From assembly GCF_017316125.1 (NCBI RefSeq), contig NZ_JAFLWA010000014.1, positions 1 to 51,013 of the forward strand: 51,013 nucleotides of DNA. Direction: 5' to 3'. Positions 35,402 through 42,438 of the stretch are shown here, piece after piece. The notes under the pieces are model-generated. The model made no database searches. It saw nothing but the letters and a program-made list of their open reading frames with translations, and was not told where the DNA came from. Position numbers and translations under genes: made by a program. How positions within the stretch are numbered: position 1 is the stretch's first letter; each line of letters opens with the position of its first letter. The DNA comes from Enterococcus sp. DIV0660C. GTDB taxonomy: Bacteria > Bacillota > Bacilli > Lactobacillales > Enterococcaceae.

Positions 35402-38400
35402 TTAGTCTAATTTATCTTCTGCAGTTTCAAAGTTTTGGATTGCATCTTCATGCACTTGTTCAACTTGTTCTGCAGCTTGTTTTTCTAATTCTTTTGCAGA
35501 TTGTTGTTCAGCAAATTTTGTTAAAGCATCTACTGTAATCAAATCATCATCTTCGTCATCCATGTCGCGTAATTCAATCTCTTCATCTTGGATATCTAAG
35601 ACGCGCATGTCTAAACCTAATGATTGTAATTCTTTAACTAATACACGGAATGATTCTGGTACACCAGGTTTTGGAATTGGTTCGCCCTTAACGATTGCTT
35701 CGTATGTTTTCACACGACCAACAACGTCATCTGATTTGTATGTCAAGATTTCTTGTAGGGTATAAGCAGCACCATAAGCTTCCAGTGCCCAAACTTCCAT
35801 TTCCCCAAAACGTTGTCCACCAAATTGAGCTTTACCACCCAATGGTTGTTGCGTAACCAATGAGTAAGGTCCAATTGAACGAGCATGTAATTTATCATCA
35901 ACCATGTGGGCAAGTTTAATCATATACATAACCCCAACAGATACACGTCCATCGAAAGGTTCCCCAGTACGACCATCATAAAGAACTGTTTTAGCATCGC
36001 TAGCCATACCAGCTTCACGAACTGTTGCCCAAACATCTTCATCAGTCGCGCCATCAAATACAGGAGTTGCTACGTGGATTCCTAATTGACGTGCAGCCAT
36101 ACCTAAGTGTAATTCTAATACTTGTCCGATGTTCATCCGAGATGGTACCCCTAATGGATTCAACATGATATCGATTGGTGTTCCATCAGGTAAGAATGGC
36201 ATATCTTCTTCTGGCATAATACGGGATACAACCCCTTTATTACCATGACGACCGGCCATCTTATCTCCTTCATGAATTTTACGTTTTTGAACGATATAAA
36301 CACGAACGAGCATGTTAACACCTGGTGACAATTCATCGCCAGCTTCACGAGTAAAGATTTTTACATCATGAACGATTCCGCCACCACCATGTGGTACACG
36401 TAATGAAGTATCGCGAACTTCACGAGCTTTTTCGCCAAAGATTGCATGTAGCAAACGTTCTTCTGCTGATAATTCAGTTACACCTTTTGGAGTAACTTTA
36501 CCAACAAGTAAATCGCCATCTTGAACTTCCGCACCAATGCGGATAATACCCATTTCATCTAAGTCTTTCAAAGCATCTTCCCCAACGTTAGGGATTTCGC
36601 GAGTAATTTCTTCAGGTCCTAATTTTGTATCACGAGCTTCTGACTCATACTCTTCAATATGGATTGAAGTATAAACATCATCTTTTACAAGACGACGACT
36701 CATGATAATCGCATCTTCATAGTTGTAACCTTCCCAAGTCATGAAACCAACTAAAACGTTTTGTCCTAGTGCCATTTCACCTTGTTCCATAGAAGGTCCA
36801 TCTGCTAAAGTATCACCTTTTTCAACGCGTTCGCCTAAAAGAGCGATTGGGCGTTGGTTATAACTTGTTCCAGAGTTTGAACGACGGAATTTTGTTACAA
36901 CATATTTATCTAATGCACCATTGTCACGACGAACACGGATTTCTGAAGCATCTACATACTCAACGACACCATCATGTTTACACAATAATGCAGCACCTGA
37001 GTCATGCGCAGATTTATATTCCATACCAGTACCAACCCATGGTGATTGTGGATTGATCAACGGAACAGCTTGACGCTGCATGTTGGCACCCATCAAGGCA
37101 CGGTTGGAGTCATCGTTTTCCAAGAAAGGAATACATGCTGTCGCAACAGCTACTACTTGCTTAGGAGAAACGTCCATATAGTCAACTTTATCAATAGAAA
37201 CTTCTAAGTTTTCACTTTGTGCACGAGCCATTACAACGTCTTCAGCAAATGTGCCATCTTCATTTAGAATACTATTTGCTTGGGCAACGATATAGTGGTC
37301 TTCGATGTCTGCAGTTAAGTAATCAATTTGATCAGTAACGCGTCCTGTCGCACGATCAACTCGGCGATATGGTGTTTCAATAAAACCAAACTTATTAACT
37401 TTTGCATAACTTGACAAACTGTTAATCAATCCGATATTCGGACCTTCAGGAGTTTCAATCGGACACATACGACCATAGTGAGAATAGTGAACGTCACGAA
37501 CTTCATAACCAGCACGGTCACGAGTCAAACCACCAGGCCCTAAGGCTGATAGACGACGTTTATGTGTTAACTCACCCAATGGATTTGTTTGATCCATGAA
37601 CTGTGACAACTGTGAAGAACCAAAGAATTCTTTGATACTTGCTACAACTGGACGAATATTAATCAATTGTTGTGGTGTTAATGTTTCTGTGTCTTGGATA
37701 GACATTCTTTCACGTACCACACGTTCCATACGAGCTAAACCAATACGGAATTGATTTTGCAATAATTCACCAACTGAACGGATACGACGATTACCTAAGT
37801 GATCGATATCATCAACATTTCCAATATCTTCCATTAAGTTCAAGAAGTAGCTCATTGAAGCAACAATATCTGCGGGACGAATAGTCTTAACAGCTGCTTC
37901 TGGGTAGCCATTACCGATTACGTTAACTTCACGTTCTGGATCTTTTGGTGAAAATACTTTAATCACTTGGACAGTCATTGGATCAGTGACTACACCATCT
38001 TCTGATGGGTAATAAGTAACTGAGTTCAAACCATTGTCAATAAATGGAGCTAATGTTTCCATCACTTGGTGTGTCAACACAGTTCCTTTTTCAACGATGA
38101 TCTCACCAGTTTCTGGATCAACTAACGTTTCAGCTAATGTTAAGTTTAATAGACGTGTTTTTAAATCTAATTTTTTATTTACTTTGTAACGACCAACATT
38201 TGCTAAGTCGTAGCGTTTTGGATCGAAGAAACGAGCATTTAATAAGTTACGAGAACTATCTGCTGTTTTTGGTTCTCCTGGACGTAAACGTTCGTAAACA
38301 TCTTTCAAACCTTCTTCTGTACGTGAATCACTTGCATTTTTGTGCAAATCTTTTTCAATAGTATTACGCAATGTTTCGCTATCACCAAATATTTCAAAAA

Positions 38401-39019
38401 TCGTATCATCAGAACCAAATCCTAATGCACGAACTAAAACAGTCAAAGGAATTTTACGTGTACGGTCAATACGTACGTAAGAAATATCTTTTGCGTCAGT
38501 TTCCATTTCCAACCAAGCACCACGGTTAGGAATAACTGTTGATCCAAAGCCTTCTTTTCCGTTTTTGTCTACTTTCCCATGGAAGTAAACACCGGGTGAA
38601 CGAACTAATTGAGAAACAATTACACGTTCAGCACCATTGATAATAAATGTACCTTGTTCAGTCATTAGTGGGAAATCACCAAAGAATACTTCTTGTGCTT
38701 TGATTTCACCTGTTTCACGATTTGTTAAACGCAAAGTAACATGTAATGGTGCAGAATAGTTAGCATCATGTGCGCGAGCTTCTGCTACTGTATACTTAGG
38801 TTCCTTAAGTTCATAATCCACAAATTCCAAAGATAAGTTGCCATTAAAATCATCGATTGGCAAAATGTCTTCAAACATTTCTCTAAGTCCTTCATCTAAG
38901 AACCATTGGTAAGAGTCTGTTTGAATTTCAATCAAATTTGGTAATTCCAACACTTCACTGATGCGTGCGAAACTTCTACGTTCGCGATGTTTTCCGTATT
39001 TTACTACGTGTCCAGCCAA
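35402..39019 (-). CDS. rpoB: RNA polymerase beta subunit
   Basis: A 1205-residue beta subunit, first of the rpoBC operon. I chose the TTG start at 39019 ([20 protein letters not shown]), with AGGGG eight bases upstream; the frame extends three codons to a GTG at 39028. The rifampicin region reads [31 protein letters not shown] with the wild-type Gln, Asp, His and Ser positions, so no classical resistance change is seen. The C-terminal tail is long, acidic and Glu/Gln-rich, as in other enterococci. Confidence 0.98.
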
Positions 39020-39265
39020 GCTCTTCACCCCTCTAAAATGTCATTCAAAAAGACTACCCGACTAATTGTTACAAAAATATTTCATATATTTTTTTTAGGT
39101 AACAACAGACATTTTTTGCGGCTTTTAGGCAAAAAAAAACCAAAAATAGAACAATCTCTTGAAAACTTACTTTCGTGAGCTCCTACTTTTGTTTCTCTTA
39201 TAAAGCCGAAACGGACAATATTTCGTTTCTGCCTTTCATTCATCAGATAGTTTTTGCAACTTCAT

Positions 39266-39380: not shown

Positions 39381-39409
39381 TTGACAGACCAAAACCCCTT
39401 TGCTAAGAT
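39381..39409 (+). promoter_or_regulatory. Promoter of ABC transporter leader
   Basis: TTGACA (39381-39386), 17 bp, and TAAGAT (39404-39409) with an extended TGC before the -10. It points into a 320-nt leader ending at the ABC operon. Confidence 0.8.
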
Positions 39410-39439
39410 TGAGGAAATTCATTTTGTGGAGGAATTACT

Positions 39440-39502
39440 ATGATAACTAATCGAATAAAACCAACACAACTGAATAACTTTTTCTTTAGCTACTTTAGAT
39501 AG
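39440..39502 (+). CDS. Leader peptide rich in Phe/Tyr codons
   Basis: A 20-codon reading frame with a strong GGAGG (39428-39432) about eight bases upstream, ending FFFSYFR-stop. Four Phe and one Tyr codons fall in the last seven sense codons. It starts about 25 bases after the predicted transcription start. Immediately after the stop begin mutually exclusive hairpins and then an intrinsic terminator (39676-39711) before the ABC operon. This is the layout of translation-coupled attenuation, where a ribosome stalled at scarce Phe (or Tyr) would change RNA folding. Peptide expression itself is inferred. Confidence 0.7.
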   Translation: MITNRIKPTQLNNFFFSYFR

Positions 39503-39651
39503 GTTTGTATTCATCATGATGGATACAAACGTTAAACAACTTGTTTGTATCTATGATGGCTAAAGAACTTTGTATTACGCAAAAAGCCACGTAGACATTA
39601 CGCTAAGTGGCTAAGCAAAGAAAATACAAAGTATTTCTGGTACCATACTTT
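39503..39651 (+). promoter_or_regulatory. Attenuator with competing RNA pairings
   Basis: The heptamer TTTGTAT occurs at 39504-39510, 39544-39550 and 39569-39575. Its complement ATACAAA occurs at 39523-39529 and 39624-39630. Thus 39503-39530, 39521-39551 and 39568-39631 can each form stems that exclude one another. AAAGTAT / ATACTTT (39628-39634, 39645-39651) overlaps the last copy. An AGCCAC / GTGGCT stem is at 39585-39612. The switching order is inferred. Confidence 0.65.
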
Positions 39652-39675
39652 TCTATTTATTTTCTCGCTTTTTCG

Positions 39676-39711
39676 AATCCATTTAGACGTCATGTCTGAA
39701 TGGATTTTTTT
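39676..39711 (+). terminator. Intrinsic terminator upstream of the ABC operon
   Basis: A 13-bp stem (39676-39688 with 39694-39706, one G-T pair), a 5-nt loop and a run of T. It lies 33 bp before the first ABC gene, inside the leader, so transcription must pass it to reach the operon. Confidence 0.85.
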
Positions 39712-39738
39712 GTTTCTTAAAACTAAGGGGGAAATCAA

Positions 39739-40710
39739 ATGAAAAAGAATGTATTAATTGGACTTGGACTAACAGTATTACTTGCACTAGGTGGTTGTGC
39801 TCAAAAAAGCGAAGCAAAAAATGGCGATGAAGAAATGAAAACGGTGGGCGTACTTCAACTTGTACAACATAATTCTCTTGACGATTCTTATAAAGGTTTC
39901 AAAGAAGGTTTGTCAGAAGGTGGTTACGTTGAAGGAAAAAATTTAACAATTGATTATCAAAACGCTCAGAACAATCAAGATAACTTAAAAAGTATGAGCG
40001 AAAAATTAGTCAAAGAAAAACCTGATTTATTGTTGGGAATCGCAACACCTGCTGCTCAATCATTACTAAATGAAACGACAACTATTCCGATTACTGTTAC
40101 TGCAGTGACTGATTTGAAAGAAGCCAAACTAGTTGCGTCCAACAAAGAACCCGGAGGAAATGTAACTGGCACTTCTGATATGGTTCCAATCAAAAAACAA
40201 ATTGATTTATTACTAAGCATTGTTCCGAATGCAAAAAAAATCGGAATCATGTACAACAACGGCGAAGCAAACTCTAAACTTCAAGGTGATCTTGCTCAAA
40301 AAGAATTAGAAAAAGCTGGAATTAAAGTAAAAGTTTTAACTGCTAACTCAACCAACGATGTTCAACAAGTAACGAAAAGTTTAGCCAAAGACGTTGATGG
40401 CATTTATATTCCAACAGACAATACATTCGCTAGTGCCGCAAGTGTCGTTGGTGAAGTAGCAAAAGAAACAAAGACTCCTGTCGTTGCTGGTTCAGCTGCA
40501 CAAGTAAAAGAAGGTGGACTTGCAACTGTCGGCATTGATTATGAAAAACTTGGAAAACAAACTGGAATCATGGCTGCAAAAATCCTTGATGGAAAAGCAA
40601 CACCTGACTCACTTCCTGTTGAATCTGCAAACGATTTAGAACTAATTGTAAATGAAAAAATGGCTGATGATTTAGGAATTGATCCTGCCAGTATTAAAGC
40701 AGCTGAGTAG
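39739..40710 (+). CDS. ABC transporter substrate-binding lipoprotein (TrpX-like)
   Basis: A 323-residue lipoprotein of the COG2984 type. A signal peptide ends in the lipobox LALGGC, with the lipidated cysteine near residue 20. The body has the periplasmic-binding-protein layout: GVLQLVQHNSLDD..YKGFKEGL, then LLLGIATPAAQSLLN, NAKKIGIMYNNGEANSKLQ and GGLATVGIDYEKLGKQTGIMAAKIL. Streptococcal relatives are called TrpX and are assigned to tryptophan uptake. Here the leader peptide has Phe and Tyr but no Trp codons, so an aromatic amino acid such as Phe may be the substrate; that is inference. Confidence 0.85.
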   Translation: MKKNVLIGLGLTVLLALGGCAQKSEAKNGDEEMKTVGVLQLVQHNSLDDSYKGFKEGLSEGGYVEGKNLTIDYQNAQNNQDNLKSMSEKLVKEKPDLLLGIATPAAQSLLNETTTIPITVTAVTDLKEAKLVASNKEPGGNVTGTSDMVPIKKQIDLLLSIVPNAKKIGIMYNNGEANSKLQGDLAQKELEKAGIKVKVLTANSTNDVQQVTKSLAKDVDGIYIPTDNTFASAASVVGEVAKETKTPVVAGSAAQVKEGGLATVGIDYEKLGKQTGIMAAKILDGKATPDSLPVESANDLELIVNEKMADDLGIDPASIKAAE

Positions 40711-40732: not shown

Positions 40733-41638
40733 ATGTTAAATCTATTTTCAATTTTCTTATCTTCTGCCTCACAAGGTGTTCTTTGGGCATTATTAGCAAT
40801 TGGTGTTTATATTACGTTTCGTATTTTAGATATTGCTGATCTAACTGCTGAAGGAAGTTTTCCTTTAGGTGCTGGGATAGCGGCAATGAGTATTACAACA
40901 GGCATCCATCCTTTACTTGCTTGCCTACTAGGATTTTTAGGCGGTGCGTTGGCTGGATTGGTTTCCGGATTGCTTCATACAAAACTCAAAATTCCTGCAT
41001 TACTTGCAGGAATCATCACCATGACAGGCTTGTATTCTGTGACTTCACGAGTGATGGGCGCACCTAATATCTCACTGCTTGGACAGCCCACTATTTTTGA
41101 ATGGGTTGAGTCATTGGGCGTCTCAAAAACAACCGCCGTTTTAATTGTAGGTTTGTGTATCGCTTTACTGATTGTTTTTCTACTAGTGTTTTTCTTAAGA
41201 ACAGAAACAGGACTTGCAATTCGAGCAACAGGAGACAACTTAGCGATGAGCGAAGCAAATGGCATCAACACGGATAACATGAAAATTATTGGCTATATGA
41301 TCTCGAACGGTTGCATTGCTTTAGCTGGCTCCTTACTTGCACAAAACAATGGTTTTGCTGACTTAAACTCTGGAATTGGCACAATCGTTATTGGCTTAGC
41401 TTCGATCATCATTGCAGAAGTCTTGTTCCGTAACCAGCCACTACTTTCACGTTTCTTGACAGTCATTCTTGGTGCAGTGATTTATCGTTTTATTTTAGCA
41501 CTCGTTTTCGAATTAAATGTCGAACCTAGTGACTCCAAATTGGCTTCTGCTTTAGTTTTAGTTATCTGTTTATCTTTCCCACAAATTCAAGAAAAATTGC
41601 GTATTCCTAAATTCAATCGAGGAGGGAACAACAAATGA
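40733..41638 (+). CDS. ABC transporter permease (TrpY-like)
   Basis: A 301-residue integral membrane permease with eight or so helices, of the COG4120/branched-chain permease-like class. Typical motifs are ITFRILDIADLTAEGSFPLGAG and ETGLAIRATGDNLAMSEANGINTDNMKIIGYMISNG. The gene follows the binding protein by 22 bp with AGGAGG upstream and overlaps the ATPase start (ATGA), showing a tight operon. Confidence 0.88.
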   Translation: MLNLFSIFLSSASQGVLWALLAIGVYITFRILDIADLTAEGSFPLGAGIAAMSITTGIHPLLACLLGFLGGALAGLVSGLLHTKLKIPALLAGIITMTGLYSVTSRVMGAPNISLLGQPTIFEWVESLGVSKTTAVLIVGLCIALLIVFLLVFFLRTETGLAIRATGDNLAMSEANGINTDNMKIIGYMISNGCIALAGSLLAQNNGFADLNSGIGTIVIGLASIIIAEVLFRNQPLLSRFLTVILGAVIYRFILALVFELNVEPSDSKLASALVLVICLSFPQIQEKLRIPKFNRGGNNK

Positions 41639-42438
41639 GTGCCGTACTGACAATTAAAGATTTACACCATACTTTTGAAAAAGGAACAACAAACGAAAAT
41701 CACGTACTAAAGGGAATTAATCTCTCACTTCAACCAGCTGATTTTGTAACAATTATTGGCGGGAATGGTGCTGGAAAATCTACCTTACTTAATAGTATCG
41801 CGGGAACTTTTACCGCTGATCAAGGAAAAATTATTTTGCGTGAACAAGACATTACCAAAAAATCGGTAGTAGAACGTTCTAAAAATATCAGCCGTGTATT
41901 CCAAGATCCCAAACTAGGGACAGCTGTTCGTTTAACTGTTGAAGAAAATTTAGCGCTTGCAATGAAACGAGGAAAGAAACGTGGCTTCTTTCGTGGCGTA
42001 AAACCTCGGGATCGTCAATTTTTTAAAGAGCAACTAGCAAGTTTGAATTTAGGATTAGAAAATCGTTTGACCACAGAAATCGGCTTATTATCTGGCGGGC
42101 AACGCCAAGCAATCACATTGTTAATGGCAACGCTACAACGCCCCGAATTGATTTTATTAGATGAACATACCGCTGCACTTGATCCGGCAACTTCTGCCAC
42201 TGTAATGAAATTGACTCAGAAATTAATTCAGGAACAAAAACTAACAGCTTTTATGGTTACGCATGATATGGAAGATGCTATTCGTTACGGCAATCGTTTA
42301 ATCATGTTGCATCAAGGGCAAATCGTTGTGGATATTACAAATGAAGAAAAACAACAATTAACTGTTGCTAAATTACTTGATCTTTTCAAAAAAAATAGTG
42401 GTACCACACTCAAAGAAGACACCGTTCTTTTAGCTTAA
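41635..42438 (+). CDS. ABC transporter ATP-binding protein (TrpZ-like)
   Basis: A 267-residue ABC ATPase with Walker A GGNGAGKSTLL, Q-loop RVFQDPKLGT, signature LLSGGQRQAITL, Walker B LILLDEHTAALDP and H-loop VTHD. It energises uptake by the two preceding gene products, with which it overlaps by four bases. No clear terminator follows; birA lies about 110 bp downstream. Confidence 0.9.
   Translation: MSAVLTIKDLHHTFEKGTTNENHVLKGINLSLQPADFVTIIGGNGAGKSTLLNSIAGTFTADQGKIILREQDITKKSVVERSKNISRVFQDPKLGTAVRLTVEENLALAMKRGKKRGFFRGVKPRDRQFFKEQLASLNLGLENRLTTEIGLLSGGQRQAITLLMATLQRPELILLDEHTAALDPATSATVMKLTQKLIQEQKLTAFMVTHDMEDAIRYGNRLIMLHQGQIVVDITNEEKQQLTVAKLLDLFKKNSGTTLKEDTVLLA

Follow-up and report, generated by a model that had tools for sequence, protein, structure and literature searches.

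A probable ribosome-mediated attenuator with exchangeable, gene-matched leader codons upstream of an aromatic amino acid importer operon in Enterococcus

The region from 39381 to 39738 of the 51,013-nucleotide stretch of Enterococcus sp. DIV0660C that we analysed (contig NZ_JAFLWA010000014.1; hereafter the window) very probably encodes a ribosome-mediated attenuator that senses charged tRNA-Phe and tRNA-Tyr and switches an operon for a Phe/Tyr importer, and its RNA appears to be one version of a Lactobacillales scaffold whose leader codons are exchangeable and matched to the downstream gene. We put the probability of this reading, which was reached by comparing sequences, at roughly 0.87. The comparison supports the leader ORF, its codon runs, a set of possible mutually exclusive pairings, the target genes, and the match between codons and targets. 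We also think it likely, with less assurance, that the element represents a portable class of RNA: a homologous, order-wide attenuator whose specificity is reset by codon exchange, which unites an sRNA family with an orphan riboswitch candidate, and in which a second terminator stage evolved from a one-stage form. As far as our searches show, what is new is the RNA family itself, the fact that it extends across the order, and a homologous scaffold on which codons are exchanged; ribosome-mediated attenuation itself is an established kind of regulation, and experiments in Firmicutes include those on Rli60 and the S. aureus ilv leader.

An earlier, sequence-only reading of this DNA had described a promoter, a 20-codon ORF and a multi-hairpin attenuator with a terminator in front of an ABC transporter operon. 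We confirmed that layout between 39381 and 39712, with a Shine-Dalgarno sequence and nested hairpins, and the features of the region and of the operon are as follows.

39381..39409, + strand: promoter TTGACA, 17 nt, TAAGAT, with an extended TG before the second hexamer (promoter scan)
39428..39432, + strand: Shine-Dalgarno sequence GGAGG of the leader ORF, 7 nt 5' of the ATG
39440..39502, + strand: leader ORF MITNRIKPTQLNNFFFSYFR and stop, 20 codons, ending FFFSYFR, with Phe/Tyr codons at 39479-39487 and 39491-39496 (ORF reading and Enterococcaceae copies)
39484..39490, + strand: region R1, CTTTAGC, inside the ORF end; possible partner, GCTAAAG of region c
39503..39514, + strand: region a, GTTTGTATTCAT, immediately 3' of the stop codon
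39519..39530, + strand: region b, ATGGATACAAAC; possible partners, a or c
39543..39565, + strand: region c, GTTTGTATCTATGATGGCTAAAG; possible partners, b, region R1 or the P4 5' arm
39568..39632, + strand: lineage-specific outer stem around P4 (heptamers 4 and 5; seen by eye in close relatives and drawn in the predicted fold)
39585..39596, + strand: P4 5' arm, AGCCACGTAGAC; possible partners, c or the P4 3' arm
39602..39611, + strand: P4 3' arm, GCTAAGTGGC; possible partners, the P4 5' arm or the terminator 5' arm, CCATTTAG (39679-39686)
39675..39712, + strand: intrinsic terminator, hairpin 39675-39707 plus U-run (terminator scan)
39486..39676, + strand: match to Rfam RF02863, sRNA_2410 ("Enterococcus sRNA 2410"), 177.3 bits (covariance model; gathering score 61 bits)
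39739..40710, + strand: substrate-binding lipoprotein (SBP), PF04392, with Tyr268 at the selectivity position and Ser252 at the second pocket position
40733..41638, + strand: ABC permease, PF02653 (Pfam)
41635..42438, + strand: ABC ATPase, PF00005 (Pfam)

A promoter match alone is weak, since the scan returned 2 promoter-like sites for the region and shuffled sequence gave 4.0 on average; by eye, a TTGACA/TATACT-like pair stands at the equivalent place in many relatives. The terminator scan found 1 terminator in the region (shuffled mean 0.8), and the predicted fold of 39486-39715, at -66.3 kcal/mol, lies 6.6 standard deviations below shuffles. The five alternating heptamers that had been pointed out earlier were found as TTTGTAT at 39504, 39544 and 39569 and ATACAAA at 39523 and 39624. 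In 500 shuffles of the region the two words together averaged 0.15 occurrences and never exceeded 3, but in 24 of the 500 at least one heptamer of any sequence was present five times or more. While the count of five stands, wide conservation does not extend to the fourth and fifth copies: those at 39569 and 39624 are, by eye, kept in close relatives of the window only, and the widely conserved core consists, again by eye, of the first three heptamers, GGCTAAAG, a GCCAC/GTGGC hairpin and the terminator. Palindromic TTTGTAT/ATACAAA copies in a leader could also form a DNA operator for a repressor, an explanation to which we give almost no credence, as the heptamers are located 3' of the promoter, within a leader whose ORF is conserved, and the frequent G-U pairs in a:b and b:c suit RNA, not DNA.

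Two minor matters concern the same stretch. A reading of TGGTACC at 39638-39644 as a remnant T-box was dropped, the motif being absent in five other copies (L002, L003, L004, L008 and L010). A match to the Lacto-rpoB RNA (RF01709, 40.7 bits against a cut-off of 40) lies at 39187-39244 on the - strand, which it shares with a divergent gene at 35402-39028 that we take to be rpoB-like.

RF02863 matches occur in 101 of the 105 genomes of the family Enterococcaceae, with one to six per genome. Among 130 copies fetched from the RF02863 matches listed, the leader ORF was present in 129, a figure which means that an ORF of aromatic pattern exists, other frames remaining possible, since the frame was sought by that pattern and the start chosen with a preference for ATG and a Shine-Dalgarno sequence. 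In the remaining copy (L085), which was left out of the counts, one base of the ORF is masked. The typical leader reads QLN, two or so residues, and (Y/F)(Y/F)FS(Y/F)FR, and none of the 129 contains a Trp codon. Some paralogues are Phe-only (FFFSFFR: L035, L039, L066, L092 and L093) and others Tyr-only (YYVSYY: L069, L115 and L124), and in the protein tree the SBPs of these two kinds are sister clades from largely the same genomes. A hairpin precedes a T-run in 129 of 129 copies, by a permissive scan run without a shuffle control. The Q-L-N triplet 5' of the codon run is largely conserved, its Asn being nearly always AAT, and among the Enterococcaceae leaders we found no peptide or pairing reason for this. 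We weighed whether TGAATA, in the QLN codons, might pair with TATTCA in region a, and dropped the idea because QLN persists where region a has lost TATTCA (e.g., L171).

The target survey covered genes downstream on the same strand. The first gene 3' of the 129 leaders was an SBP gene in 73 cases, aroE in 41, aroF (DAHP synthase) in 9 and aroC in 2, and the rest comprised 1 aroK, 1 aroB, 1 transposase and 1 unassigned gene; no target family was given to L075 and L101. Consequently, 127 of the 129 leaders stand directly before an aromatic-pathway gene or a gene for a TrpX-family binding protein or importer. At L101 (genome G096) the first gene is transposase-like, and the near-identical peptides of L086 and L099 precede aroE. 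As a check independent of the RNA, we scanned named genomes with the window SBP, which is 98% identical to an Enterococcus thailandicus protein. The scan returned 51 loci in Enterococcus, Tetragenococcus, Vagococcus, Lactobacillus and relatives; upstream of the SBP, the whole-element model matched at 51 of 51, and an ORF with a codon run was recognized by pattern at 50 of 51. One of the two outcomes that, for the sequence-only reading, would count against it was a lack of conservation of the ORF and heptamers in relatives, and the 129 copies with the ORF and the 51 loci with the element do not bear this out; with the pairings and targets, they support its proposal of a Phe-codon leader peptide and a multi-hairpin attenuator.

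RF02863 is the same RNA as the window element (sRNA_2410; Sinel et al. 2017, PMC5593968), and counterparts of the region R1:c and a:b pairings are already drawn in its Rfam consensus line. Rfam files it as an Enterococcus sRNA gene (type Gene; sRNA), in contrast with our reading as a cis-acting attenuator. The portions of PMC5593968 available to us state that RNA-seq and Northern blotting revealed two transcripts in E. faecium Aus0004 and give a length of 195 nt, and in those portions no cis role is given for sRNA_2410; the words leader, T-box and ABC transporter are absent from the main text. The element might therefore be a free-standing, trans-acting sRNA to which the ORF and terminator are incidental. 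Besides the two detected transcripts and the Rfam type, this alternative can call on a rise with daptomycin (2.3-fold by RNA-seq and 4.1 by qPCR, in a text, as far as available, that calls expression during growth mostly uniform). Length counts against the attenuator reading: the promoter-to-terminator RNA that it leads one to expect is roughly 295 nt, longer than the published 195 nt, and the Rfam model begins inside the ORF. We nevertheless judge a trans-acting sRNA very unlikely. The position of 127 of 129 copies directly before aromatic-pathway or importer genes, and the presence of the element upstream of all 51 importer relatives, speak against an independent sRNA gene, as do the conserved ORF, the covarying terminator pairings, and a codon run that changes with the downstream gene. 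Premature termination at an attenuator would also leave a short, stable RNA.

Pairings were counted over 42 dissimilar sequences, with shuffle controls (n = 500). Covariation is strong for a:b and for the antiterminator, and weaker for the other pairings. The a:b pairing is intact in 98.8% of cells and shows double changes at 7 of its 12 pairs, which 0 of 500 shuffles reached. Region R1:c is paired in all 294 cells (100%) across the 42 sequences, mostly through conservation; its one double change (T-A to G-U, which turns Phe into Val) was reached by 16 of 500 shuffles. For b:c, 94.8% of cells are paired, and its 3 double-change pairs were reached by 8 of 500 shuffles. For c with the P4 5' arm, 96.5% are paired, one pair occurring as G-C, A-U or G-U, and the covariation is mixed, in that 337 of 500 shuffles reached its number of double-change pairs and 2 of 500 its number of double-change cells. 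The near-invariance of region c is to be expected, because c would join three pairings. P4 itself varies in a paired manner across families, its pair counts having been obtained apart from the counting procedure used for the other pairings. For the antiterminator, in which the P4 3' arm would pair with the terminator 5' arm, each copy scored higher with its own partner (20.06) than with permuted partners (14.88), and none of 2000 permutations reached the observed value (14 of 2000 within the importer type and 1 of 2000 within the aro type), although the test missed the main terminator hairpin in some copies, which made some own-partner scores too low (for example, those of L050 and L043). Covariation across relatives, which had been suggested earlier as a check, thus favors a:b and the antiterminator, and through the latter it supports predicted antiterminator and terminator pairings that are mutually exclusive.

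We then infer stalling, folding order and direction of response as follows. When Phe or Tyr is scarce, a ribosome would stall on the FFFSYF codons, masking region R1 and sparing region a; a:b would form, the free region c would take the P4 5' arm, the freed P4 3' arm would take the terminator 5' arm, and transcription would continue. With ample Phe and Tyr, the ribosome would reach the stop codon and cover region a, so that b:c, P4 and the terminator could form. If no ribosome translated the leader, region R1:c and a:b would form together, P4 would form again, and the operon would be off.

We simulated stalling on the 42 sequences with transcripts that ended at the terminator 5' arm, along which a ribosome footprint was moved codon by codon, the stop codon being -1; the footprint was 10 nt, and 8 and 12 nt gave similar results with a peak at -4 or -5. 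The mean number of antiterminator pairs, by codon in the A site, was 2.03 at -12, 4.71 at -8, 6.19 at -5 and 3.55 at the stop codon, compared with 3.01 without a ribosome. At least four antiterminator pairs were predicted in 8, 19, 27, 16 and 14 of the 42 sequences, respectively, so the stop-codon state is not fully off even on average. Region R1:c held 9.14 pairs with the A site at -12, and b:c held 12.28 at the stop. This trend implies that stalling at Phe/Tyr codons would favor read-through, and that finishing the peptide or not translating it would favor termination. The codon position suits the alternative pairings in the model on average over the 42 sequences, and only weakly for the window alone, where the antiterminator reached 4.4 pairs solely with the Ser codon in the A site (-5), and 0.1, 0.1 and 1.1 pairs at -8, -7 and -6, 0.7 at -4, and 2.9 without a ribosome. 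Because this equilibrium result is clear at one position only, the model needs co-transcriptional folding in the window: a:b forming before c exists would be expected to widen the effect.

The conservation of QLN and FSYFR in the peptide raises another mechanism, in which the nascent leader peptide binds free Phe or Tyr and arrests the ribosome, like TnaC, in place of stalling at hungry codons. We consider this highly improbable. The number of residues separating QLN from FS is not constant (3 in 97 of 129 leaders, 4 in 26 and another number in 6, some of these perhaps artefacts of the pattern), and the scaffold also occurs with IISIIR, WQNWRR or FFFSFFR as its peptide. Moreover, the conserved TTT and AGC codons sit in region R1, whose pairing is kept when Phe is replaced by Val (YYVSYY).

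The binding protein bears on a puzzle raised by the sequence-only reading, namely that a family usually linked to tryptophan should follow a leader without Trp codons. The window SBP scores 344.6 bits against the NCBIfam TrpX equivalog, below the cut-off of 390, and the solved structure that it matches best is that of the tyrosine-binding CD0873 (6HNI, E 5.7e-71). According to the part of PMC6816091 at hand, Trp binding is explained by Gln284 of SP1069, and Tyr- and Phe-binding members have Tyr there; the aligned position of the window SBP holds no Gln, and has Tyr268. In C. difficile, reduced uptake of Tyr and Phe accompanied the loss of a related transporter (PMC5951980, as available in part). 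Together with the absence of Trp from all 129 Enterococcaceae leaders, these results make it likely that the window SBP is not of the Trp-selective type, which would dispose of the puzzle.

We compared the selectivity position in 159 SBPs encoded 3' of leaders. After Phe/Tyr leaders (n = 150) it was Tyr in 144, Phe in 5, a gap in 1 and Gln in none; after leaders with at least two Trp codons it was Gln in 7 of 7, and after leaders with a single TGG it was Gln in 2 of 2 (L257 and L338, classed as "unclear" in the pocket count and labelled Trp in the protein tree). The SBPs of Trp leaders form one clade (support 99), and the match between leader and pocket therefore amounts to one split, kept in families f1, f4, f6 and f8. 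The genome of the window holds both kinds: in addition to the Phe/Tyr leader and its Tyr-type SBP, a second copy (L342, contig G000:C4, about 156950-157140, - strand; leader MNLSNQALLGNNYAWRNWRR) carries AWRNWRR and stands before a TrpX-family SBP that is, by eye, of the Gln type, with an RF04312 score of 47.5 bits, below the cut-off. A finer match, of Tyr-only and Phe-only leaders with Glu, Ala or Ser at the second pocket position, failed: three Tyr-only leaders precede SBPs with Ala there, a residue linked to more hydrophobic ligands in the available part of PMC6816091.

Beyond the family, the whole-element model matches at least 251 of 395 genomes of the order Lactobacillales, in 59 of 80 genera, and, in the class sample, at least 27 of 299 genomes, of which five lie outside the order. 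Searches of more than 40 genomes ran stricter filters, so the order, class and phylum counts are lower bounds. The 53 loci first inspected outside Enterococcaceae stood before binding proteins (33), aroE (12) and other genes (8). Because some weaker matches carried other codon runs, we built a scaffold model (R2) that starts with the conserved Ser codon and thus includes just the final codons of the leader, the frame being set by that Ser codon; it matches at least 4 of 398 genomes of the phylum sample.

Codon types were surveyed in 276 distinct copies, 129 from Enterococcaceae and 147 from elsewhere, after dropping repeats (copies identical over their first 110 bases, or identical in both leader end and first 60 residues) and antisense or overlapping matches (L166:+, L194:+, L201:+ and L315:+). 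Phe/Tyr runs were found before aroE in 52 of 52 cases, aroF in 12 of 12, pheA in 5 of 5 and class I aminotransferases in 4 of 4. Ile/Leu/Val runs (e.g., AIISIIR) precede ilvE-like (3 of 3), ilvA-like (3 of 3), ilvB-like (2 of 2) and LivJ-like (9 of 9) genes; Pfam assigned representative targets to PALP, TPP enzyme, Aminotran_4 and Peripla_BP_6, which we take to be ilvA, ilvB, ilvE and LivJ, respectively. Trp runs (e.g., RTWQNWRR) stand before TrpX-family binding proteins. One locus, L255, at which the frame anchor failed, entered the survey as Ile/Leu/Val with an SBP_bac_3 target, and its other frame reads, by eye, RFYYFAYYR. In one genome (G295), the scaffolds of a YFYSYFR and an IISIIIR copy show 87% agreement over ungapped positions beyond the leader, agreement among all 14 copies compared being 67 to 88%, and this pair only suggests a recent codon exchange. 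Mixed aromatic leaders were seen before a transketolase (YYYFGWFS, L230) and an SNF-family symporter (IWYSYRR, L282), and Phe/Tyr leaders before MFS transporters (L280, L329 and L337), of which that of L280, when scanned, had a chorismate mutase domain at its C-terminal end. The published livJ motif was tried as an Ile-type relative and set aside, as the leaders of L226, L267, L269 and L248 gave no match in Rfam.

The Trp-type copies lead to a second known RNA. RF04312, the trpB motif (Narunsky et al. 2024, PMC11109978), matches 2 of the 7 Trp-type loci scanned (L319 and L260) above cut-off; the window copy gave no RF04312 match in the Rfam scan at the gathering score. The phylum search supplied five loci for this comparison. 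Two RF04312 matches, L343 and L344, lack a comparable ORF with a codon run and are probably fortuitous. The motif starts after the Trp codons. The available part of the paper describes its second hairpin as a terminator, whereas the window has a further terminator hairpin. We propose, on comparative grounds, that RF02863 and RF04312 represent two versions of a single attenuator: P4 would act as the terminator in the trpB version, and in the RF02863 version a second, similar hairpin would have become the terminator and the P4 3' arm the antiterminator strand.

The same source classes the trpB motif as a strong riboswitch candidate, and the RNA studied here might by extension be a metabolite riboswitch, a possibility that we rate a shade below peptide arrest. 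A leader ORF with matching codons precedes the Enterococcaceae and the Trp-type copies alike, one scaffold serves three amino-acid groups, and the discoverers themselves, in the text at hand, leave a classic attenuator open. If the attenuator reading holds, an sRNA with no assigned role and a riboswitch candidate with no assigned ligand would come together in one testable mechanism.

Several systems resemble the proposed attenuator. The E. coli pheA and trp leaders combine a codon run, alternative hairpins and a terminator; to our knowledge these two leader RNAs are not homologous to each other, in contrast with the single scaffold here that carries several codon runs. Panina and co-workers are said to have described, in 2003, an ARO signal for aromatic regulation in low-GC Gram-positive bacteria. 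Rli60 of the Listeria ilv-leu operon was likewise an RNA of uncertain kind, until experiments identified it as a ribosome-mediated attenuator with a branched-chain amino acid leader peptide (PMC5864092); the S. aureus ilvD attenuator peptide is Leu-rich and is a Firmicute case of leader-peptide attenuation, the B. subtilis counterpart being a T-box (PMC5794164). Both are likened here by description only, from partial texts, and each serves a single operon, unlike the multi-target scaffold. His leaders have also been predicted in Bacilli in published work. In 2005 a putative attenuator was listed before the E. faecalis aromatic supraoperon (PMC1173090, Table 7; "leader peptide" is absent from the text available), and it may be an element of the window type. 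In the mostly open-access literature that we searched, as far as its text was available, we found no description of this RNA family as an attenuator, and the shortest leader-peptide string was found only in unrelated open-access papers.

The T-box offers a further parallel: in S. suis trpX, for example, a specifier codon sets specificity and a TrpX importer is controlled, as here, but the T-box reads tRNA directly, without translation (PMC9382623, as available in part). The window gave no T-box match in Rfam at the gathering score. A portable attenuator scaffold would, if true, be a ribosome-read counterpart of the T-box, and its occurrence in at least 251 of 395 genomes suggests wide use of leader-peptide attenuation in an order better known for its T-boxes. 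The substrates of many uncharacterised ABC importers might then be predicted from a few codons, and the copies would provide a natural codon-exchange series on one RNA for dissecting attenuation.

Finally, we note some variation in the arrangement of copies. The genome of the window has no full copy before aroE-aroF, the whole-element model finding the window copy only; upstream of aroE (L214; G000:C4:150500-155500) there remains, by eye, a P4-like hairpin, GCCACGTAG..CTAAGTGGC, with a T-run. Nine close relatives, by contrast, have a full copy shortly before aroF. Elsewhere, copies occur in pairs within about 1.5 kb at single loci (L184/L278, L265, L200, L386, L389, L390 and L391): at L265 each of the two copies has its own binding protein, and at L386 and L389-L391 one copy lies before and one after a binding-protein gene.
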